Shown: positions 3,781-23,888 of the stretch, piece after piece
How the letters are laid out: the number at the start of each line of letters is the position of its first letter
Position numbering within the stretch: position 1 is the first letter of the stretch
IMG/VR virus record: IMGVR_UViG_3300030333_001576
Coordinates: 1-23,888 of that record
DNA: 23,888 nt
Origin: a virus
Direction: 5' to 3' (one strand)
The notes under the pieces: model-generated
The model's database searches: none
What the model was told of the DNA's origin: nothing
Seen by the model: only the letters and a program-made list of their open reading frames with translations
Made by a program: the position numbers and the translations under genes

Positions 3781-5199
3781 TTAAGGTATTCCAAATGGAT
3801 TCTTTTCAGTAAAGTCTAAAATAGAATCTCCTTCTGTTTGGAAGACATCATTTTCAGCAAAAGCATCTACCAAATCATCAGTATTAACTTTTAATATACC
3901 ATACAAAGCACCAGAATTAGAACCTAGAATTGTCTCTCCAACAACAAACTTCTTATCTACTATAGAAATTTCTAATGTGTTATTAACTGAATCCCATTCC
4001 TTAACTCTAGCAGTTGCTCCAGAAGTCTGACCTGTAACAGTTTCATTAAAGACATAGGAACCAGTTCCAACACCCACACCTGCTCCAGTTGGTGCTTCAA
4101 ATGTAATAGTTGGAACCTCAGAGTAACCAACACCAGCATTAGTAATATAAGCAGTTGTAACAACACCAGCAGAGTTAATATAACCAATACCATAGGCAGC
4201 AGTACTACCAACACCAACACTTCCAGGTGCTGATACTGTGAATGTTGGATGTGTGGTATATCCAGAACCACCACCAACAAGTGTTACTACTCCTATTGAA
4301 CCAAGTGTAGTAATTCCTACTGTAGCAGCAGCACCTACACCATATCCAGTAGGATCTTGAATCGTAATCCAAGGTGCTTCTGTATATCCAGCACCAGCAT
4401 TAGATATATGAATTGCCGCAATCTTTCCATCAGTTAGACCAGTATCACAATCAGTCCAAGTAGTAGAAACAGAAGCAACACCAACAGCATTAGCAGAACC
4501 AGCAGGTGAAGAAGATATACCAATCAAAGGTTGTGCTTGATAACCAGCACCCATATTGGTCATATAGATTTTCTGAACACCACCTGTAGCAACATAAGAT
4601 GCTGTAGCAGTAGCAGTAACAGCAGCTCCTATTAAAGTAAGAGTCTGGATATATCCTAGTTGTTCTACTTCATCATCAATAGTTTCAACTCCTGTATCAA
4701 TAACCTCATCCTCATAACGGAAGAGTTCACATCTAAGTTGATAAACGTAATTCTTTTTAAGTTGATAGAATGGTTGCTCATGCTCAACATACTTAATTTC
4801 AAATAACCTATCACCTAATGGGAAGTAAATAAGATCCCCTTCTTTAGGTCTAGTTGCTAATTCTATATTGGGTATATTTTTAATAAGAGGTGTAATATAA
4901 GTCTCATATCTTTCTCTAGAAATAACAAGAGTCAAATCATCTACATTTTGAATACCAAATTTTGATAGGAGTGTACCTTGTCCACCATATCCTTCATAAC
5001 TATCGATATATGCTTCAATAGGATAAGCAGCATCAAATTGAGATTCAATAACCTCTCTAATAATAGTATTTTTTTGAATATATCTTCTAGGAATATAATA
5101 GATATCTACTCCATACATCTTCAACTGTTCGTTGATAAGACTTTGGACTAAACTTTGTTCACTTTTAGCTCCCTGTAAGAAATATGGATTAAGTGCCAT
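3781..5199 (-). CDS. gp14: Neck protein gp14 with large repeat insertion
   Basis: Neck protein gp14 acts with gp13 to complete the filled head for tail joining. It is 472 residues against 256 in T4. Residues 1-165 align by eye with T4 gp14: GVDIYYIPRRYI (30-41), YIDSYEGYGGQ (64-74), FGIQNVDDLTLVI (81-93), EGDLIYFPLGDRLFEI (120-135) and VEHEQPFYQL (138-147), the last two very close to T4. The C-terminus (EGDSILDFTEKNPFG, 456-470) looks like a family tail. Between about 190 and 435 is an insertion with four GxGY repeats (217, 269, 311, 356) and a GETxxGxxSGA-type segment (about 385-435). The ATG follows TGAGGT by 5 nt; that TGA is the gp13 stop, so translation is probably coupled to gp13. Confidence 0.94.
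   Translation of the reverse strand: MALNPYFLQGAKSEQSLVQSLINEQLKMYGVDIYYIPRRYIQKNTIIREVIESQFDAAYPIEAYIDSYEGYGGQGTLLSKFGIQNVDDLTLVISRERYETYITPLIKNIPNIELATRPKEGDLIYFPLGDRLFEIKYVEHEQPFYQLKKNYVYQLRCELFRYEDEVIDTGVETIDDEVEQLGYIQTLTLIGAAVTATATASYVATGGVQKIYMTNMGAGYQAQPLIGISSSPAGSANAVGVASVSTTWTDCDTGLTDGKIAAIHISNAGAGYTEAPWITIQDPTGYGVGAAATVGITTLGSIGVVTLVGGGSGYTTHPTFTVSAPGSVGVGSTAAYGIGYINSAGVVTTAYITNAGVGYSEVPTITFEAPTGAGVGVGTGSYVFNETVTGQTSGATARVKEWDSVNNTLEISIVDKKFVVGETILGSNSGALYGILKVNTDDLVDAFAENDVFQTEGDSILDFTEKNPFGIP
3895..4632 (-). repeat. GxGY repeat array within gp14
   Basis: Residues about 190-435 of gp14. Four copies of the pattern [IV]xxAGxGYxxxPx[IV]x[IF] have their GxGY cores at 4540-4551, 4384-4395, 4258-4269 and 4123-4134, a spacing of 42-52 residues. 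Regular Gly/Ala/Val-rich strands suggest beta-solenoid or small beta modules. The module recurs in gp8 and in both giant proteins. Confidence 0.75.
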
Positions 5200-14624: not shown

Positions 14625-16196
14625 TTAGAATTGCAAGATAATTTTTACGTCTTCTTTTTGGGACTTTGACCTAGTTATTGATGGTCTGTTATCAACATAT
14701 ACTACTTCCCCAGAATATTTTTTAATCTCTGGTTGTGCAACACCGCTGCTGAAATTTTGTCCAAGATAATATGTTCTATTATTTATTACTGTCGAAACAC
14801 CTTGGAAATCAGTATTAATTCCCAAAGATACACTTCCACCATTAATTATATAACTACCACCTCCAGTTTCTCCTGGAGAAGTAATCATATGATTAAATCT
14901 ATTTGCCCTAAAACCATAAATTGGATTAGGTTCAGCTAGACCAGTAGAAGTAAATCCAGCAGTAGTTCTATCTTGCCAGTATTTCAATACTCCAGTTATT
15001 TGGTCATATGATATAACTCTTCCTACAGCAGTAGAACCAACACCAACAGTTTGAGTAATAAAGGAGTCAGGAGTAAAAATAGCAGAACTATATCCAGTAC
15101 CAGTTAGTCTAAGAGCATAAGCAGAACTTGCTTTGTCTAAAATTAACATTTGATCAGAACCATATGCTTTAGGGTTCTTAAGAACTCCTATTCTAGCAAA
15201 TTGGTTTCCTGTAATAAAATCAGGGTTTTCAGAATCATTCTCAAACCTAGCATATGCTAAAGCATTCAATGCTCCTAATTCCAAGTAAATATCTTTTCCA
15301 TGTCCACCTGGAGGAGGAATAATAACATTAAATGTTGGGGTTGTAGTGCCAGTTGGAACTCCACCAGCTTTTAAATCAACATTTGCATATGTGTATCCAG
15401 CACCACCATCAGCAACAGTAATGGATTCTACTTTTGAATCATTATTAATAACAATAGTTGCCTTAGCACCTTCACCATCACCAAGAATAGGAACTTGGTT
15501 ATAAGTGATATTAGCAGTTCCCAAACCAACACCACGATTTGTTATTGTACAAATTTTAATTTGACCACTAGCATCTGCATTTTCCCTCATAGGGACATAA
15601 CTAGCACTAGTATACCAATCATCAGGAACTGGAATATAATCTGTAGAATCAAATTTAATTGCTTGGCTTGGTCTAATACTATAAAGATATTTCCAAATAT
15701 ATCCATCACCACTACTTCCAGCAGCTCTAGGTTCTAAATCTGTAAAAGTAGGTTGATCTAATGATGGACCACCTTGATTGTTATTTTCAGGACTAGCATT
15801 ATTAAACAAACAAGCATAGACTCTATAATCATCATTAATTACATAATAATTTGCTGAATAGATATCAAAAGCACCAGAAGGTTGAGATGGATTATCTCTA
15901 GTGATATCATTTCTCCACATATCATAAGTAACACCAGATTGCCACTTAAGCTTTCTTACAACTTGACTTATATCTGCTGAGTTAATTCTTTTAACTGCCA
16001 ACATGGTATCATAATAATCATCTTGTTGACTAAAGCTATCTTTAGGAGCAGGAGGATCTGAATCCCAAGTAGAAACATAATCTGCAGGATTAGGTACTCC
16101 AATAAAACAGTAATACGAATTAGCACTGGATTGTACACCAGCCACAAAATTCGTAGCATTCACAATACGAAGTTGATCAGTAATTATCGCAGCCAT
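14625..16196 (-). CDS. gp8: Baseplate wedge subunit gp8
   Basis: gp8 is a baseplate wedge protein that in T4 dimerises and bridges gp7 and gp10. It is 523 residues against 334 in T4. The anchor blocks are clear. GDGYIWKYLYSI (163-174) then DYIPVPDDW (186-194) corresponds to T4 GDGYVWEYLFEI ... EYIVVPWPEE. The C-terminus YSGEVVYVDNRP ... QKEDVKIILQF (494-523) corresponds to T4 HSGEMIYMENRP ... QTEEINILFTF. The region 85-130 (WRNDITRDNP ... INDDYRVYACL) matches the T4 PDPYTFRINDIVV ... YRCLD part. The extra length lies at about 215-480 and includes one GAGY repeat (265-268). AATAAATA lies 20 nt ahead of the ATG; no canonical Shine-Dalgarno site is seen. Confidence 0.9.
   Translation of the reverse strand: MAAIITDQLRIVNATNFVAGVQSSANSYYCFIGVPNPADYVSTWDSDPPAPKDSFSQQDDYYDTMLAVKRINSADISQVVRKLKWQSGVTYDMWRNDITRDNPSQPSGAFDIYSANYYVINDDYRVYACLFNNASPENNNQGGPSLDQPTFTDLEPRAAGSSGDGYIWKYLYSIRPSQAIKFDSTDYIPVPDDWYTSASYVPMRENADASGQIKICTITNRGVGLGTANITYNQVPILGDGEGAKATIVINNDSKVESITVADGGAGYTYANVDLKAGGVPTGTTTPTFNVIIPPPGGHGKDIYLELGALNALAYARFENDSENPDFITGNQFARIGVLKNPKAYGSDQMLILDKASSAYALRLTGTGYSSAIFTPDSFITQTVGVGSTAVGRVISYDQITGVLKYWQDRTTAGFTSTGLAEPNPIYGFRANRFNHMITSPGETGGGSYIINGGSVSLGINTDFQGVSTVINNRTYYLGQNFSSGVAQPEIKKYSGEVVYVDNRPSITRSKSQKEDVKIILQF
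14780..14787 (-). promoter_or_regulatory. Possible internal late promoter within gp8
   Basis: AATAAATA inside the gp8 coding region, about 161 nt ahead of the 2640-residue gene. It is identical to the octamers ahead of gp8 and the fibre gene but encodes part of a plain INN peptide, so it may be chance. It is the only ATAAATA I noticed on the coding strand that is not just ahead of a start. Confidence 0.25.
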
Positions 16197-16228: not shown

Positions 16229-18481
16229 TTATCTAAGAGCTGGGTAGATAAAGATAGTACCACCCATTCCAGTATGTGCTGTACACTGATAATATAGAGT
16301 ATCAGGAGCATTAAATGGAACTTCAAAAGTAATAGTTGATCCACCAGCACCATCATTATTAATTACACCAGAACCATATGCAGCACCAGTAGATCCATTA
16401 GCAGTGCTTTGAATTCTGAATGGATGAGCACCAGAAGAATTGCCATTAACAAACTGATATGTATTACCTCTTGCAAGGTATAGATCTGGATCATTTTCAG
16501 TAGCAGTAAATCCAACTCCTATAAATGTATAAGCACTAGTACCATTAGCACCTAATATCCATCTTCCACTAACAACTCTAGATGAGTCACCTGTGTAAGA
16601 TTTACCAGCACCAACTACAATACCAGTAGAACTACTTGTTACAGCAGATCCAACATTAGCAGTAGTTATATTAGCAGTAGTTAAGGTTGCTGTTGTACTA
16701 CCAAAGGTAGTAATAGTTCCAACTCCAGTAACATTTAATCCTGTCTGAATACCTGTTAGATTTAACCCAAGGGTATTACCATTAAGAACTAAACCACCAT
16801 TAGATGTAGTTACACCAGTAACAGTTAATCCATTAGCAGCAGTAATAGAAGCAACACTAATATCTGGAGTTCCAGTTAAACCTGAAGCAACTGTTGCAGT
16901 TGCAGAATTACCTGTACAAGATCCAGATGAACCTGAAGCATTACCTGTTACGTTTCCAGTTAAAGCACCACTAAAGGTGGTGGCAGTTAAAGTTCCGTTT
17001 GCTGAATTAAAAGCTAAATTAGAACCTGTTTTTGGTGGTAAATTTCCAGTTGCAGCAGTTACAAATAAGGGGAAACAAGTTGTATCAGTTGATTCATCAG
17101 CAGCAGTAACATTAGTTGCATTAGTTGCAGTAGCTGAAGTTACATTAGTTAAATTTGATCCATCACCATGAAATTCTTTTGCAGTAACAATTCCAACATA
17201 AGATCCAGCATCAATATTACCTTGATCTATAGTAACACCAGTACCAATTATAGCTTTAGTTAATGTTGGACTACCACTTACATTAGAAATATCACCAAAG
17301 TAGAAGTTAGAATAAACATCAGTAACTTGAAGTGATGTAGCACCAGTTACAATACCAACAGTAGTAACACCAGATACAGTTAATCCAGTTGTAACACCAC
17401 TTATATTCAGTCCTCTAACAGTTCCAGGAACATAAAGAGTTCCAACAGTACCTAAACCAGAAACATTGATATCTGTAAAGTCATTTGGACCTGCTTCTAT
17501 AGCAGCCTCAATTGTATCTCTGGTTGTAGTATCTAAAGAAGCAATATTTTGTAATTGTCTTGCACTACTGATGACTTGATTAGTTCCAACTTTAAATGCA
17601 GTAGCAGTAGCAATACCAGTGGTAAAGTTAGCATTTAAAGCACTACCACTACATGAAATACTTGCAACAGTAATATTAGGAGTACCCTGCAATCCTTCAG
17701 CATTAGCAGCAAGAGTAGCATTAGAAGCAGTACCAGTTACATTACCAGTTACATTACCTTCTACATTTCCTTTTAATAGAGATATTGTAGCAATACCAGT
17801 AGAAGAAGCAAAATCAATACCACTGGAATTGATTGTCATTCCAGCACCAATTACAGCAGATGTAATTATTCCACTATTAATATTTGCTGTTGCTAAATTA
17901 GCAGTACCACTATTTTGTATAGTTACTAAAGTTGCTGTATCAGTAATACTAATTGCTGTTGCAGCAATACCTGTATTATCAATAGTAACTGTGTTTAGAC
18001 CAACATATGAACCATCTCCAGTATCTCTAACTGCCAAAGAATTTGCTGTTACTGCACCACCAACATTAACTCCAAAAGAATTAATAGTAGTGATACCAGC
18101 AATCTTTGCAGTATCATATAAAATTGCATTTTGAGCAGTTATAATACCTGCTACATCATATCCAGCACTCGAAAAAGTATTAATTCCACTTATCTTAGCA
18201 TCAGTAGCAAAAGTAACTATACCTGCACTATAAATCTGTCTTGAGTTAATTACTGCTGTATTAGCAGTTCCTGTAATAGTAGGAGCACCAAAGGAGGTTG
18301 ATATACTCAGAGCACCATCAACAGCAATAGAACTAACAATTCCTACAAATAAATTAGTCCCATCACCCAGTTTCCCATAAACCTCATCAAAGTTTTCATT
18401 AACTTTAACGGCACCAGCTAAGAGGCTATCACCCGTTCCGTCATTCGGACTTGATCCAGTACTAATTCCTTGTTTCGCCAT
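16229..18481 (-). CDS. Fibre-like protein with C-terminal cupredoxin-like domain
   Basis: A 750-residue protein. The N-terminus (MAKQGISTGSSPNDGTGDSL, then KVNENFDEVYGKLGDG) is a head seen on many marine phage fibres. Residues about 45-630 are Gly/Thr/Ser/Val/Ala-rich fibre repeats (GIVTA, GITT, SGALTGNVTGN, LTGTPDISVASI), with an internal imperfect duplication. Residues about 648-750 form a separate domain: DLYLARGNTYQFVN, then HPFRI (His686), then ITFEVPFNAPDTLYYQC (Cys733), TAH (His736), TGM (Met739), GGTIFI. This is the strand order and ligand set of a type 1 copper cupredoxin, with C-x2-H-x2-M spacing as in amicyanin. It lies between a giant structural gene and gp8, so it is probably a tail or baseplate fibre; the receptor is unknown. 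AATAAATA lies 28 nt upstream, and no ribosome site is evident. Confidence 0.88.
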   Translation of the reverse strand: MAKQGISTGSSPNDGTGDSLLAGAVKVNENFDEVYGKLGDGTNLFVGIVSSIAVDGALSISTSFGAPTITGTANTAVINSRQIYSAGIVTFATDAKISGINTFSSAGYDVAGIITAQNAILYDTAKIAGITTINSFGVNVGGAVTANSLAVRDTGDGSYVGLNTVTIDNTGIAATAISITDTATLVTIQNSGTANLATANINSGIITSAVIGAGMTINSSGIDFASSTGIATISLLKGNVEGNVTGNVTGTASNATLAANAEGLQGTPNITVASISCSGSALNANFTTGIATATAFKVGTNQVISSARQLQNIASLDTTTRDTIEAAIEAGPNDFTDINVSGLGTVGTLYVPGTVRGLNISGVTTGLTVSGVTTVGIVTGATSLQVTDVYSNFYFGDISNVSGSPTLTKAIIGTGVTIDQGNIDAGSYVGIVTAKEFHGDGSNLTNVTSATATNATNVTAADESTDTTCFPLFVTAATGNLPPKTGSNLAFNSANGTLTATTFSGALTGNVTGNASGSSGSCTGNSATATVASGLTGTPDISVASITAANGLTVTGVTTSNGGLVLNGNTLGLNLTGIQTGLNVTGVGTITTFGSTTATLTTANITTANVGSAVTSSSTGIVVGAGKSYTGDSSRVVSGRWILGANGTSAYTFIGVGFTATENDPDLYLARGNTYQFVNGNSSGAHPFRIQSTANGSTGAAYGSGVINNDGAGGSTITFEVPFNAPDTLYYQCTAHTGMGGTIFIYPALR
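16232..16540 (-). other. Cupredoxin-like domain coding segment
   Basis: Residues about 648-750 of the fibre-like protein. The candidate copper ligands are His686 (codon at 16424-16426), Cys733, His736 and Met739. The family resemblance comes from motif order and spacing only; metal binding is inferred. Confidence 0.7.
16852..16969 (-). repeat. Internal duplication in fibre gene, copy 2
   Basis: Encodes GNVTGNASGS ... SATATVASGLTGTPDISVASI. It pairs with copy 1 at about 17661-17771 (GNVTGTASNATLAANAEGLQ, then GTPNITVASI). The copies are similar at protein level and diverged at DNA level. Confidence 0.6.
17661..17771 (-). repeat. Internal duplication in fibre gene, copy 1
   Basis: The earlier copy of the GNVTG ... 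LQGTPNITVASI block. The shared order is GNVTG, Ala/Thr/Asn-rich spacer, G[LT]xGTP[DN]I[ST]VASI. Confidence 0.6.
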
Positions 18482-18509: not shown

Positions 18510-18517
18510 TATTTATT
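18510..18517 (-). promoter_or_regulatory. Candidate late promoter for the fibre gene
   Basis: AATAAATA lies 28 nt ahead of the ATG at 18481. Its first two bases belong to the TAA stop of the giant upstream gene. It is identical to the octamer ahead of gp8. Confidence 0.55.
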
Positions 18518-21500
18518 ATGAAATGACATACTCATTCATTTTCAATGGTTTATGTCTAGTAATCACTGTTGAAGTAGATAAACCACTAATCCCATTATCA
18601 CCATAATAGGTAAATGTGTTACCTTCTTTTCTTTGTACTGTAATCTTACCCCAACTAAAGTGACCCATGTTAGGAGAAGTAGTAACAATACCAGAGTATG
18701 TGGTAATATTTTGAGTATCAAATGTAACTGTTCCTACACCAGTTTTATTTTGATCAAATTTATAATATGTAGAAGAGAAATTCTCTGTACTAATACCAGC
18801 AATATTACAGAAGACTCTTCTTACATCTGTAGTAAGACCTGTAAATGGTCCATTAATACCAGTAGCACCAATAGAAGCATTGGTTACAGTTACAGTTTCA
18901 GCACTAGCAACTTGATATACACAATCTAAGAATGATGTGGTAGCACCAACCTTAGTAGTAGTATCAGTCTTTCTAGTTTCTAGAGTTCCATCTCCAAATG
19001 TAAAGAAAGTATTATCTGCTATGAAGAAATCACCAGTAGTAATACCACTAACTGTGGTAGCAGCAGAAACAGGACCAGTTCCACCAGAAGCAACATCTCT
19101 CAAAGGAGATCCATCTGGAATATAGAAATCAAAGATGATTTGAGGTTTTCCACTTGTAGTAGTTGTACCAAATCCAACTATAGTTCCAAAATCACCTTCA
19201 TAAGCATCTACATCCACTTTAACTTCTCTTACTGCTTGAGGAGCAGCAATTTCTAGAACAGGTGGATTTGTAGTAGTATATCCAGTTCCAGCATTAGTAA
19301 CTGTTATTGATGTTACTGTTCCAGCAGCACCTACAGTACAAGTAGCAGTTGCTGTAACAAAACCACCACCTTCGGGAGGAGGAGAGAAAGAAAGTGTAGG
19401 AACTGCTGTATATCCAAGTCCAACATTAGTTAAATCTACAGAACTAACAGTACCAGTATCAGAAACTATAGCAGTAGCAATAGCAACTATCTTATCGTCC
19501 TGTTCTGTAATATCAATAAAGTTCTGTAGAGTATCTCTACTAGCAGACTGTTCATTATATTGATTAAAGAATGGTCTAACAGTATCAACATAGATGTATG
19601 TTGTACCTGCTCCTATTGGTTGTGTTACAAAAGCAGTAGGGAATACATCTGCTTCTAATTCAACCCTATCCTTTCCAACTGGTCTATTATTAACAATTAG
19701 ATCACTAGTTTGTTTTCTCCAGTTAGCAGGTCTTAATAGACTTATATCTGTTGTTATTCCTATTCTATTGTAAGGTGTAGTAGTTACACTATCAGAACTT
19801 AATGATGTAATTCCTACAATAGTTCTTGGTTCTTGATTTAATCCTGGTCCCTGTGGATATCCATTATATAATTTCTCTGGATTATTCTGAATATCTATTT
19901 GATCACCTTTCTTAATAGTTTTAGCAACATTTAATAATGCTACATCTATTCCAGGAGTTCCTTTATAGAAAAGAACATGTATATAATCATCAGCATTAGG
20001 AGCAGTTGAGAATACAATAGAACTTCCACCACTACCTAAGTTATATGCATACCCTGGTTTTTGAAGAAGACCATTAACAAATACTAATAGAGAATGAACA
20101 GGACTTACATTCCAACCAGGAGCAGTTTTAAGTGAAACAGGTTTATTATTAACCTTCATCTGAAAAACTGTTCTAAATCCATCCAAATCAGTACTAAAAT
20201 TATCTAATGCTTCAAGTTGTCCAAAATGCCATCCAGAGAATTCGTCAGTATGAATCTTTTGTACTGTAAGTTCAAAGTCTCTATGACTAGTAGAACTTGT
20301 AGTAGGAATTCCAGTTGCTCCACCAGTAGCAACAGTTAATATTTCACCATTACCATATCCAAATCCTTCTCTCTTAACTTTAAAGTCAACTACACTACCA
20401 CCCATTCCAACAACAATATCTACAGATGCGCTTTGTCCTGCTCCAGTAGTAGAATCAGGATCATATATTAAAGGAATGTTAGTGTAACTTAATGGAGCAT
20501 CTATTACCACTTCTGGTGGATCATATCTTTTAATAGTAACCACTGGAGCAGCAGTAGTAGTTCCAATACCTATTGCAGAACTAATAGTGTCTCCTGTACC
20601 AATAGTAAACTGACTTTGACCAACACTAACTACAGAAACATTAGCAATTAGAGTTACTTTACTAGTAGTTGATGAATTAGTAGTTTGAGCAATAGAAATT
20701 ATAGACCCTGTATTAATTCTACTTGTATCAGCAACACTTATAATTGTAGTTCCTGCAGCACCAGCAGCAGTCATAAAGGTTGTAGAATCAGTAGGATAAT
20801 AAGTATATCCAATTCCAGGATTAGTAACAGCAATACTTACGATATGACCACCACTAATAGCAGCAGTACCAATAGAAACGTAACTTGCTATACCTACACC
20901 ATAAGTCTGAACTCCAACATTAACTGTAGTCTGGATTCCAGATCTATATCCAGAACCAGTATTACCTATACTGATAGAAGTAATAGTTCCAACACCAGAA
21001 ACAATAGCAGTACCACCAGCAGCAACTAAAGGTTGATAACCTAATCCACCAGCAGATCCAACAGAAAGAATCTTACCACCATTAGGATAATTAGTTCTAT
21101 TTGCATTCTCACCTAAAACAGTATCAGTTGGTCTACGATATGCTGCAAGAGATGTTTCTTCTCCAGTAAATGTAACAGTACTACCAGCACCAGTTTCACC
21201 AAAACTATAATTTCCTTGTTGAGTACTTGCAGGTTCTTGGAACATATCATTGATCAAGAGTACTCCATTATAAGTAGAGAATCCTAAAGCATTAGTTTCA
21301 CTAGTACCATATCCAGTTGTAAGAGTGAAAGCACTCTGAATTCCAGTAAATTGATCTGAAATATCATTGAAAACTGCATTAGTAGTATAAGTTTCCTTAG
21401 TAGACCTTGGAGGTGCAGTTCTGGTAAAGATTCTACCGTGGAAAGTAGAATGAGTAACAAGACCAACCCAAGAAGTTTCATCTGGATCAGAAGTAGTACT

Positions 21501-23888
21501 TAAAGGAGTATTTCCTTTTGGTGCTTGTGCAAAATGAAGAGTATTTAATGCAATATTATAATTTCCACTCAACTTAGTAACAATAGATCCATTACTATGA
21601 GCTTCCACAGGAGTTCCTAGTTGACCCCTCAATAAAGTTAGATTATTCCCGTTAACACCTACATCTAATACTTTACAGATCTCGTCGTCGATTTTAACTA
21701 GGTCCGCAGCGGCAAATGACGTTATTCCAACTACAGGAGTATTTTGTCCAAATACTATAGCTTGTGATAAAGCAGTAGTAACAGCAGTTCCTGCAATAGG
21801 AGACTGAATCATATTATCAATAGTTATTAATGATTTGGAATTTTGATTAGTAGCAGTAATATGATGAGAAGTTCCTATACCAACTGAATTTAATTCAAAT
21901 GTTTCTGGAACCTGTTGTAAAGCTTTAGCAGCACTTTCGGCAAATCTTAATCCAGAATCAGAGAATTTAACAACATATAATTCAGTAGGAAGTTTAGTAG
22001 TGGTTACTCCAGCAACAGTAGCAGCTTTAATTCCTACAGCATTAGCAGTACTTGAACCAGTGTAACTATAATTAACCTTTTCACCTGTAACAAAGTAATG
22101 ATCAGGAATATCAACAGTATTATTAGTTAAGTTAATTCCATTACCACCTGTTCCAGCATCAGTAGAACCATCAAATATTCTTCTAAAGATTTGCTTTTCA
22201 TTATGCTTTAAGTTAAATGCTGTTTGAAGATCTAACTTAGTTCCAACATATCTACCAAATTTACTGTACCATTCTATATTATCTAAATCTAAACTAGGTG
22301 CTAAAGGAATATTATCATAAATCTGCATCTCAATACCAAAGGTCTTGACATGTACAGAAGCACCAGCTCTAGGACTATAAGTTATATCTACACTATCACC
22401 TACCAATTGAGCATCAACTGTTCCCAAACTAGTAGTATTAAGACCGACATTAGCAAAATCAACAGTTACTACATTCGATGCTGAGTTTAAAACAGCAACT
22501 TCAAAACACTCATACTGACCAGTAGAAGCAGCATTAGCACCTTCTACAGATACAAAGTAATATCCAGTAGATGCTTTGAAATCAAATCCAGAACCATCTG
22601 TTCCATAAGATGCTATAGGAGTAGCAGTAGACCCTACACCAACAGTTTGTTTGTTTGAAGTAAGTCTACCAATATCTAAAGTTACAGAACCAATACCACT
22701 AGAACCATATTTCTCTAAAGCAATAAAGGAAGCATTTGCTGTAACAGCAGCACCTACACTTTCATGGAAATCTAATTTAACATGACCACCTTCAATTTTA
22801 GCATAATAGGTTCCAAATCCAACATCTAAAGAATCAGGAGAAAGACTATTAGTAAGATCTCCATATTGGTTAAATGCTACCTTAGTACCATCATGAATGA
22901 GGTTAAATTCACTTCCTACAAACTCTTGAACATTATTTTCAAGTTGAACCATAATATGAGCAGATCTATAATCTACTCCAAATTCAACAACATTAGCACT
23001 TACACCAGCACCAATATTAGCTTGTGAATCACCTAAGTAACATGAATCACCTAAAGCAGTACTTGCTACACCAACAATATTATCTTTAACACTTATAGAA
23101 ACATTAGAAATATCATATAAATTATACTCATTCTTAATAGGAACAAAAGTTAAATCCCAACCTTCTTTCTTAGGAGCATAATCAAAAGTTCCTAATTCTG
23201 GATAGGTTTCTATAGTTGCATACTCATTAATATATGCAACATTATCATGCTGAAGAAGAGAAACAATAGAGAATTGTCTTTCATCAGAATAAGTTTGATC
23301 TTTTACTAAAGTAAAGATTTTGTTGAATACATCATTATCAGTAAATTCACCAACAGTAGAGAATTTAGTAGGTCTTTCTCTATCATTAAATGTATCACTA
23401 AAGTCATCTATATCAAGTGCTCTATTTCCAATAGACTGATAATAATCAGTAATAGGTCTATTAGCAAATAAAACTTCCTTAGAGATTATTTGACCTCCTA
23501 CATCAACTGTAAGTTCACTTACATCGTCAAAATCAGGATATGATTGTACATCACCAAAACATTGCTGTTCAGCAACTAACTCAAAGTTAGCAGGCTCTGT
23601 TCTAGTAATAGCAGCATCTGGATCTTTACTTTCAATTTCTAAATCAGACCATCTATCAAATCCAGCAACATGACTTAATGCTTTTACATCATCACCCCAA
23701 GTATCAATAGGAACTTGTGATCTTAAAGCATATGAAAATCTTTGATAATATCCATTATCTGGAAGTCTTTGGAAACTATTGTTTAAGAATCCAGAATCAG
23801 ATTGGAATCCATGATTGACTGTTGCACCAGCACCAGTTGCAATTTCTGCTGCAAAATTAACATTCTTTTTAATATATGCTTGTACTCT
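18516..23888 (-). CDS. Giant tail/baseplate structural protein, 5' end beyond window
   Basis: An open frame runs without a stop from the right edge to the TAA at 18518-18516, giving 1790 in-window residues. I translated 23888-22953 by hand and it reads as good protein in the same frame (for example NNSFQRLPDNGYYQRFSYAL, RPITDYYQSIGNRALDIDDF, SYLGD-type turns), so the ATG at 22952 is internal. Visible parts: the YYQRFSYAL region; an IDDE-type module (about 21545-21745); five GxGY repeats (cores at 20946, 20805, 20355, 19410, 19278); YIHVLFYKGTPGIDVALLNV, typical of long marine T4-like virion proteins; and the C-terminus ITRHKPLKMNEYVIS. It sits upstream of gp8, the T4 gp7 position; homology to gp7 is not visible. 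A baseplate or tail structural role is inferred. Confidence 0.88.
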   Translation of the reverse strand, partial: RVQAYIKKNVNFAAEIATGAGATVNHGFQSDSGFLNNSFQRLPDNGYYQRFSYALRSQVPIDTWGDDVKALSHVAGFDRWSDLEIESKDPDAAITRTEPANFELVAEQQCFGDVQSYPDFDDVSELTVDVGGQIISKEVLFANRPITDYYQSIGNRALDIDDFSDTFNDRERPTKFSTVGEFTDNDVFNKIFTLVKDQTYSDERQFSIVSLLQHDNVAYINEYATIETYPELGTFDYAPKKEGWDLTFVPIKNEYNLYDISNVSISVKDNIVGVASTALGDSCYLGDSQANIGAGVSANVVEFGVDYRSAHIMVQLENNVQEFVGSEFNLIHDGTKVAFNQYGDLTNSLSPDSLDVGFGTYYAKIEGGHVKLDFHESVGAAVTANASFIALEKYGSSGIGSVTLDIGRLTSNKQTVGVGSTATPIASYGTDGSGFDFKASTGYYFVSVEGANAASTGQYECFEVAVLNSASNVVTVDFANVGLNTTSLGTVDAQLVGDSVDITYSPRAGASVHVKTFGIEMQIYDNIPLAPSLDLDNIEWYSKFGRYVGTKLDLQTAFNLKHNEKQIFRRIFDGSTDAGTGGNGINLTNNTVDIPDHYFVTGEKVNYSYTGSSTANAVGIKAATVAGVTTTKLPTELYVVKFSDSGLRFAESAAKALQQVPETFELNSVGIGTSHHITATNQNSKSLITIDNMIQSPIAGTAVTTALSQAIVFGQNTPVVGITSFAAADLVKIDDEICKVLDVGVNGNNLTLLRGQLGTPVEAHSNGSIVTKLSGNYNIALNTLHFAQAPKGNTPLSTTSDPDETSWVGLVTHSTFHGRIFTRTAPPRSTKETYTTNAVFNDISDQFTGIQSAFTLTTGYGTSETNALGFSTYNGVLLINDMFQEPASTQQGNYSFGETGAGSTVTFTGEETSLAAYRRPTDTVLGENANRTNYPNGGKILSVGSAGGLGYQPLVAAGGTAIVSGVGTITSISIGNTGSGYRSGIQTTVNVGVQTYGVGIASYVSIGTAAISGGHIVSIAVTNPGIGYTYYPTDSTTFMTAAGAAGTTIISVADTSRINTGSIISIAQTTNSSTTSKVTLIANVSVVSVGQSQFTIGTGDTISSAIGIGTTTAAPVVTIKRYDPPEVVIDAPLSYTNIPLIYDPDSTTGAGQSASVDIVVGMGGSVVDFKVKREGFGYGNGEILTVATGGATGIPTTSSTSHRDFELTVQKIHTDEFSGWHFGQLEALDNFSTDLDGFRTVFQMKVNNKPVSLKTAPGWNVSPVHSLLVFVNGLLQKPGYAYNLGSGGSSIVFSTAPNADDYIHVLFYKGTPGIDVALLNVAKTIKKGDQIDIQNNPEKLYNGYPQGPGLNQEPRTIVGITSLSSDSVTTTPYNRIGITTDISLLRPANWRKQTSDLIVNNRPVGKDRVELEADVFPTAFVTQPIGAGTTYIYVDTVRPFFNQYNEQSASRDTLQNFIDITEQDDKIVAIATAIVSDTGTVSSVDLTNVGLGYTAVPTLSFSPPPEGGGFVTATATCTVGAAGTVTSITVTNAGTGYTTTNPPVLEIAAPQAVREVKVDVDAYEGDFGTIVGFGTTTTSGKPQIIFDFYIPDGSPLRDVASGGTGPVSAATTVSGITTGDFFIADNTFFTFGDGTLETRKTDTTTKVGATTSFLDCVYQVASAETVTVTNASIGATGINGPFTGLTTDVRRVFCNIAGISTENFSSTYYKFDQNKTGVGTVTFDTQNITTYSGIVTTSPNMGHFSWGKITVQRKEGNTFTYYGDNGISGLSTSTVITRHKPLKMNEYVIS
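19242..19440 (-). repeat. Paired GxGY repeats in the giant protein
   Basis: Two adjacent copies: VDLTNVGLGYTAVPTLSFSP, and ITVTNAGTGYTTTNPPVLEI. Cores are at 19410-19421 and 19278-19289. They are close relatives of the gp14 repeats. Confidence 0.75.
20345..20980 (-). repeat. Dispersed GxGY repeats in the giant protein
   Basis: Three copies with cores GSGY (20946-20957), GIGY (20805-20816) and GFGY (20355-20366), each preceded by a short strand such as ISIGNT, IAVTNP or FKVKRE. Confidence 0.65.
21545..21745 (-). repeat. IDDE-type module in the giant protein
   Basis: GITSFAAADLVKIDDEICKV, then GNNLTLLRGQLGTPVEAHSN, then GSIVTKLSGNYNI. The order of motifs matches the inserted gp15 module and the DUF4815-type protein module. 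Part of it (about 21678-21725) has unusual codon use. Confidence 0.55.

Follow-up and report, generated by a model that had tools for sequence, protein, structure and literature searches.

In this work we describe a cupredoxin-like domain at the C-terminus of a 750-residue fibre encoded on a 23.9-kb virus contig, hereafter the window. What is new here is the setting, a cyanophage baseplate fibre, the cupredoxin fold itself being known, and both the fold and the set of ligands are well supported by prediction. We consider it probable that a type 1 cupredoxin of one domain is carried here on a trimeric baseplate fibre of the T4 gp9/gp10 class in a cyanomyovirus, with a one-copper site formed by His686, Cys733, His736 and Met739 on a loop of amicyanin length, and that copper stiffens the head of the fibre. 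If true, a copper site in the virion would represent a new cofactor for tailed phage and would tie ocean copper chemistry directly to how Synechococcus and Prochlorococcus become infected. The analysis also supplies a fold and a testable predicted cofactor for a common cyanophage baseplate protein whose present name reflects only its position.

Gene order and identity of the fibre

The fibre gene and the features that place it in the baseplate are as follows.

16229..18481, minus strand: baseplate fibre gene, 750 aa (open reading frame; phrog_677; gene order as in P-TIM68), positional equivalent of cyanophage gp9 ("baseplate wedge tail fiber connector")
18350..18475, minus strand: N-terminal baseplate-attachment segment, residues 3-44 (phmmer to T4 gp10/gp9; phrog_958, E=1.2e-9)
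18516..23888, minus strand: gp7-like baseplate wedge protein, upstream neighbour of the fibre gene (phrog_2885 baseplate wedge subunit), with its 5' end outside the window; its counterpart in P-SSM4, with matching gene order, bears the annotation gp7
14625..16196, minus strand: gp8 baseplate wedge protein, downstream neighbour of the fibre gene (Pfam PF09215 Phage-Gp8, E=6e-12; phrog_438, E=3e-158)

Genes in the window run in the order gp7-like wedge protein, 750-aa fibre, gp8, a 2640-aa protein, proteins of 73 and 128 aa, gp13, gp14 and gp15, which is the order of AVU42_gp086-095 in Prochlorococcus phage P-TIM68; gp14 and gp15 of the window are 76% and 82% identical to their P-TIM68 counterparts. 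The corresponding gene of P-SSM4 is annotated gp9 and likewise sits between gp7 and gp8. Residues 1-402 of the fibre are 60% identical to the gp9-like protein of P-TIM68, while residues 465-747 (the C-terminal 283) match phrog_677, "baseplate wedge tail fiber protein connector", with E=1.1e-40; this profile match in the C-terminal half, together with the position between gp7 and gp8, places the fibre in PHROG 677. With the full 750-aa fibre as query, Pfam gave no hit at E<=1. At the N-terminus, a stretch of 42 residues matches residues 2-43 of T4 gp10 (phmmer, E=4.9e-8), the gp9-type connector of 9f4a (E=0.001) and T4 gp9 (E=0.0044), such that the fibre carries the N-terminal attachment domain of the T4 gp9/gp10 wedge-trimer class. 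By homology and gene order, the product of the 750-aa open reading frame is a fibre in the baseplate of a T4-like cyanophage.

Each T4 virion carries 18 chains of gp9, assembled as trimers, in which the N-terminal domain binds gp7 and the C-terminal domain provides the attachment for the long tail fibre (PMC3004832). Since the C-terminal domain of T4 gp9 holds the long tail fibre, the cupredoxin-like domain may by analogy be a joint for that fibre instead of a tip. An earlier note on this DNA had spoken simply of a phage fibre; the protein can be named more closely, as the syntenic protein that is T4 gp10/gp9-like at its N-terminus and lies beside gp7 and gp8. Separately, we observed that parts of gp8 (14625-16196), gp14 (3781-5199) and the gp7-like protein (18516-23888) match PHROG 460 or 2885 of one another, which suggests, at the level of sequence profiles, that a module common to the three is another domain spread across neck and baseplate genes.

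Predicted fold and ligand residues

The domain and its putative copper ligands map to the window as follows.

16232..16564, minus strand: cupredoxin-like domain, residues 640-750 as modelled, core 659-747 (AlphaFold2; Foldseek; VIA-align; HMM core)
16424..16426, minus strand: His686, first predicted copper ligand (HPF motif), invariant in the 64-row homologue alignment
16283..16285, minus strand: Cys733, predicted thiolate ligand closing model strand 89-94, invariant in the same alignment
16274..16276, minus strand: His736, predicted second imidazole ligand, invariant in the same alignment
16265..16267, minus strand: Met739, predicted axial ligand, invariant in the same alignment

AlphaFold2, supplied with residues 640-750 and 63 homologues from related loci, produced a model of the domain with a pLDDT of 94.7 and a pTM of 0.88. 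A Foldseek comparison of this model with the PDB put rusticyanin (E=4.1e-5) and amicyanin (E=6.7e-4) at the head of the list, and nearly all of the best 50 matches were cupredoxins or copper (multicopper) oxidases, with plastocyanin among the top ones. Alignment with VIA-align to the first domain of 2dv6 covered 95 of 111 residues with a Z of 10.9 and an rmsd of 2.2 A, and alignment to rusticyanin gave a Z of 9.9. All three methods find the Greek-key beta-sandwich of about 100 residues that defines the cupredoxin fold superfamily, which is the fold that the earlier note had proposed. The folded unit begins near residue 640 (16564) and stops near 747; the span of 16232-16540 given previously does correspond to residues 648-750, and it opens slightly too late.

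All four ligands lie in the sequence where they had been reported, His686 within GAHPFRI and Cys733, His736 and Met739 within YYQCTAHTGMGGT, and the YYQC motif and the ligand spacing had also been read correctly: the segment YYQC733-TA-H736-TG-M739-GGT has the spacing C-x2-H-x2-M. The ligand loop of plastocyanin is C-x2-H-x4-M. No other His, Cys or Met occurs in the C-terminal 110 residues of the fibre, and the entire 750-aa protein is poor in residues of this type (3 His, 4 Cys and 3 Met). Placed by strand positions in the model, His686 falls just before strand 49-52, Cys733 closes strand 89-94, and His736 and Met739 occupy the loop preceding the last strand, which is the cupredoxin arrangement; the model strands thus reproduce the layout of a type 1 copper site, with a His before strand 4 and Cys, His and Met/Gln/Leu in the loop before the last strand.

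Sequence-based methods point to the same fold less strongly. With phmmer, the domain matched 2vmj, a nitrite reductase with an amicyanin loop, at E=0.002 and plastocyanin at E=0.41, and a profile search matched amicyanin and plastocyanin weakly. The Pfam model PF00127 (Copper-bind) scored 16.7 bits (E=0.01) against a gathering cut-off of 21.2 bits and matched 34 of the 64 homologues (best E 1.1e-4), while the NCBIfam models for amicyanin (TIGR02657) and plastocyanin (TIGR02656) reached 15.5 of 110.2 and 16.1 of 87.85 bits, respectively, below their equivalog cut-offs. Because the sequence methods agree weakly and the family cut-offs are not attained, we assign the domain to the cupredoxin fold and not to the plastocyanin/azurin or amicyanin family. 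A further profile, PF25489, built on a plant At5g54830-like domain, matches 32 of the 64 phage domains in the homologue alignment (best E 6.5e-4), and these matches suggest that the plant domain is cupredoxin-like too.

Distribution, ligand conservation and competing explanations

Among GenBank phage records, 327, almost all of them from cyanophages, match the domain at E<=1e-5. With these matches, and with the domain HMM scoring 115 bits (E=1.7e-35) for a single copy in the window, the domain is judged from profile searches to be no chance resemblance, and to be real and widespread. Its commonest form in those records is the C-terminus of a cyanophage "gp9", and 287 GenBank phage records contain a gp9 of the P-SSM4 type over at least 80% of its length. 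The remark in the earlier note that similar tails may occur in other marine phages was therefore an understatement, as the domain occurs in hundreds of sequenced cyanophages and sometimes in several copies per genome, with four copies in three genes of P-SSM2 and three copies on one 250-kb contig. Of 269 copies, 121 end within 15 aa of the protein C-terminus and 98 are internal, more than 150 aa from it, and the domain is also found in podoviruses, in phages of Methylophilales and in Bacteroidetes genomes; on this distribution it behaves as a mobile module. Many marine Bacteroidetes genomes carry relatives (loci L087-L153), in which the full ligand set is found in 27 of 29 clusters, the search pattern itself having contained three of the ligands.

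To follow the ligands across homologues, domain copies were gathered by HMM from all open reading frames of the retrieved loci, and the viral copies were clustered at 70% identity into 88 non-redundant clusters; loci from the genome-contig search were excluded from the viral ligand statistics because the pattern used in that search included ligands. All 64 homologues in the alignment retain H, C, H and M. Of the viral clusters, 58 carry His-Cys-His-Met and 12 His-Cys-His-Gln, giving 70 intact clusters; the remaining 18 have lost at least two and up to all four ligands, with no cluster missing a single one, the alignment at the first His being ambiguous by one residue in a few cases. The free variation of H/C/H/M that would have spoken against the earlier reading is thus absent. 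When columns were shuffled over the 88 viral clusters, so few single losses arose in none of 20000 permutations, in a test that ignores shared ancestry, the ligand-less copies representing perhaps five or more lineages and not 18 independent events. A smaller set, gathered before ligand-less queries were used and with the Gln group removed, gave 36 intact clusters, 7 that had lost at least two ligands and 0 with a single loss.

In the intact copies the ligand columns are the most conserved (100%), higher than any fold residue, whereas conservation across 8 ligand-less clusters is 0-38% at the ligand positions and 75-100% at the fold residues Y/P/G/G/Y/F; a copy without three of the ligands retains 61% identity to an intact one. 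Codons for the ligand His vary synonymously (CAT 54/CAC 64, and 97/21). Four residues that form one site would be expected to be kept or lost together, and the observed pattern, in which the ligands behave as one unit and are under joint selection as in a type 1 copper site, speaks for selection on a metal site in the intact copies. At the same time, since ligand-less relatives exist in phage structural genes, the fold itself can serve in a virion gene without metal.

Two related families were observed alongside these copies. A ligand-less lineage, in which the Cys and second His are absent (locus L200, residues 717-825 in the frame from 1573, and relatives), is found in many cyanophages, adjoining an intact His-Cys-His-Gln copy within one large gene, the one that also holds the family described next. 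A family with the motif YYWCHxHTxQGN (L258:2471-2821 and 20 other loci; L200 residues 454-562 in the frame starting at 1573) has the invariants H39, H56-Y57 and C103-H104-x-H106-x2-Q109, and in some cyanophages lies in a large gene downstream of gp9. Modelled separately, the Gln-bearing subfamily gave an AlphaFold2 pLDDT of 74 and no clear PDB match, for which reason we do not claim it as a cupredoxin; from these models it could represent a Gln-ligated or a different metal site.

The persistence of ligand-less copies in tail genes raises the alternative that the fold is an inert beta-sandwich used for protein-protein or glycan contact, with H/C/H/M kept for packing or through recent common descent. 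Many phage fibres employ beta-sandwich adhesion domains, which lends this explanation some appeal, but we regard it as unlikely given that the ligands exceed every fold residue in conservation within intact copies, that they are lost jointly and never singly where packing residues would be expected to go one by one, and that their codons vary synonymously. The type 1 copper reading thus remains our preferred one. Under it, the predicted site would most likely load copper inside the host as it lyses, or else from seawater, the bound metal would rigidify a compact, protease-resistant head, and the stiffened head would dock the long tail fibre or contact the host surface; the copper load would be three per trimer, or about 18 per virion if the copy number of T4 gp9 applies. 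The host cytoplasm, in which virions are assembled, keeps free copper very low, and loading in vivo is therefore not a given. The boldest form of this proposal, that cyanophage baseplates bear about 18 type 1 copper centres which are redox-active or act as a copper bait for entry, making the infection of marine picocyanobacteria copper-dependent, is in our estimation quite improbable.

Two specific roles for the metal may be considered further. In a copper version of the iron Trojan Horse, the metallated domain could be a decoy bound by a host outer-membrane receptor for copper or chalkophore uptake, a role in keeping with its C-terminal position on the fibre of the window phage and with the iron HxH sites of T4 gp37 and marine fibres proposed for siderophore receptors (PMC11705849). 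We think this very unlikely, as the C-terminal domain of T4 gp9 binds the long tail fibre and not the host (PMC3004832), the domain is internal in many relatives (the 98 of 269 copies noted above), and the receptor is itself hypothetical. Still further down in probability, and hard to credit at present, is a redox function in which cycling between Cu(I) and Cu(II) at a light-driven host surface would serve for sensing or electron exchange and help to trigger the baseplate: the ligand set and loop length are those of amicyanin, an electron carrier, but any partner would be hypothetical, and redox is not required by the fold because ligand-less relatives sit in virion genes. Finally, although phages of the same group carry petE (PMC3037559) and one relative is annotated PetE, we reject the capture of a host plastocyanin, by chance fusion of an auxiliary photosynthesis gene to the fibre, on loop length and on the low score of the plastocyanin model, the nearest relatives being other phage fibre domains.

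The relative in question, SSCSM2R_202 of Synechococcus phage S-SCSM2R (L085:1752-2255), is 168 aa long and carries the cupredoxin-like domain, has an N-terminus resembling that of the long-tail-fibre gene of P-SSM2 and, as in P-SSM2, is adjoined by a peptidase S8 gene. By these resemblances it is probably a virion protein and not a plastocyanin, a warning that genes labelled "PetE" in phages may in some cases encode virion domains and that phage petE counts may be inflated. Taken together, the analyses confirm as real the earlier observation of a cupredoxin-like domain with four ligands, and support its interpretation in part.

Comparison with known systems

With amicyanin the phage domain shares the cupredoxin fold, the order His...Cys-x2-His-x2-Met and the length of the ligand loop; it differs in falling below the PF00127 and TIGR02657 cut-offs, and in being fused to a baseplate fibre where amicyanin is a free periplasmic electron carrier. 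Its first His is followed by Pro (HPF), compared to HN in amicyanin and plastocyanin. As the T1 His of laccases likewise lies in an HPF context, the Pro provides no argument against copper. The best structural matches, rusticyanin and the N-terminal cupredoxin domain of the Hyphomicrobium nitrite reductase 2dv6, superpose over 94-95 residues at 2.1-2.2 A, while sharing about 20-24% identity with the phage domain and being free or enzyme-fused electron carriers; the Cys-His-Met loop of rusticyanin is longer.

Among phage proteins, T4 gp9/gp10 align with the N-terminal 42 residues of the fibre, whose gene lies between gp7 and gp8 as does cyanophage gp9, whereas the fibre has a longer shaft and a C-terminal domain that is a predicted cupredoxin with ligands. 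Cyanophage gp9 (PHROG 677) belongs to the same family, and gp9 of P-SSM4 has the same domain and ligands; the variable middle is longer in the window protein, which has 750 aa (about 410 in P-SSM4 and about 815 in P-TIM68). The PHROG 677 family bears no copper or cupredoxin annotation, and none of the annotations, the Pfam or NCBIfam models reaching cut-off, or the open-access papers found names the domain a virion cupredoxin. Our search of the open literature found no paper on a cupredoxin, plastocyanin-like or type 1 copper domain in phage tails, though earlier notice elsewhere is possible, and a 2010 paper comparing 16 cyanomyoviruses is silent in its main text on both cupredoxin and copper.

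The nearest published idea is that of HxH-held iron, in which T4 gp37 and the fibres of marine phages are proposed to exploit siderophore receptors through iron-binding sites under the Trojan Horse hypothesis (PMC11705849). The HxH tips of T4 gp37 and of alterophage R22Y likewise place metal-binding residues on a phage tail fibre (PMC11705849), whereas the predicted cupredoxin site differs from them in metal, fold and ligand set, and lies within one chain instead of along the trimer axis.
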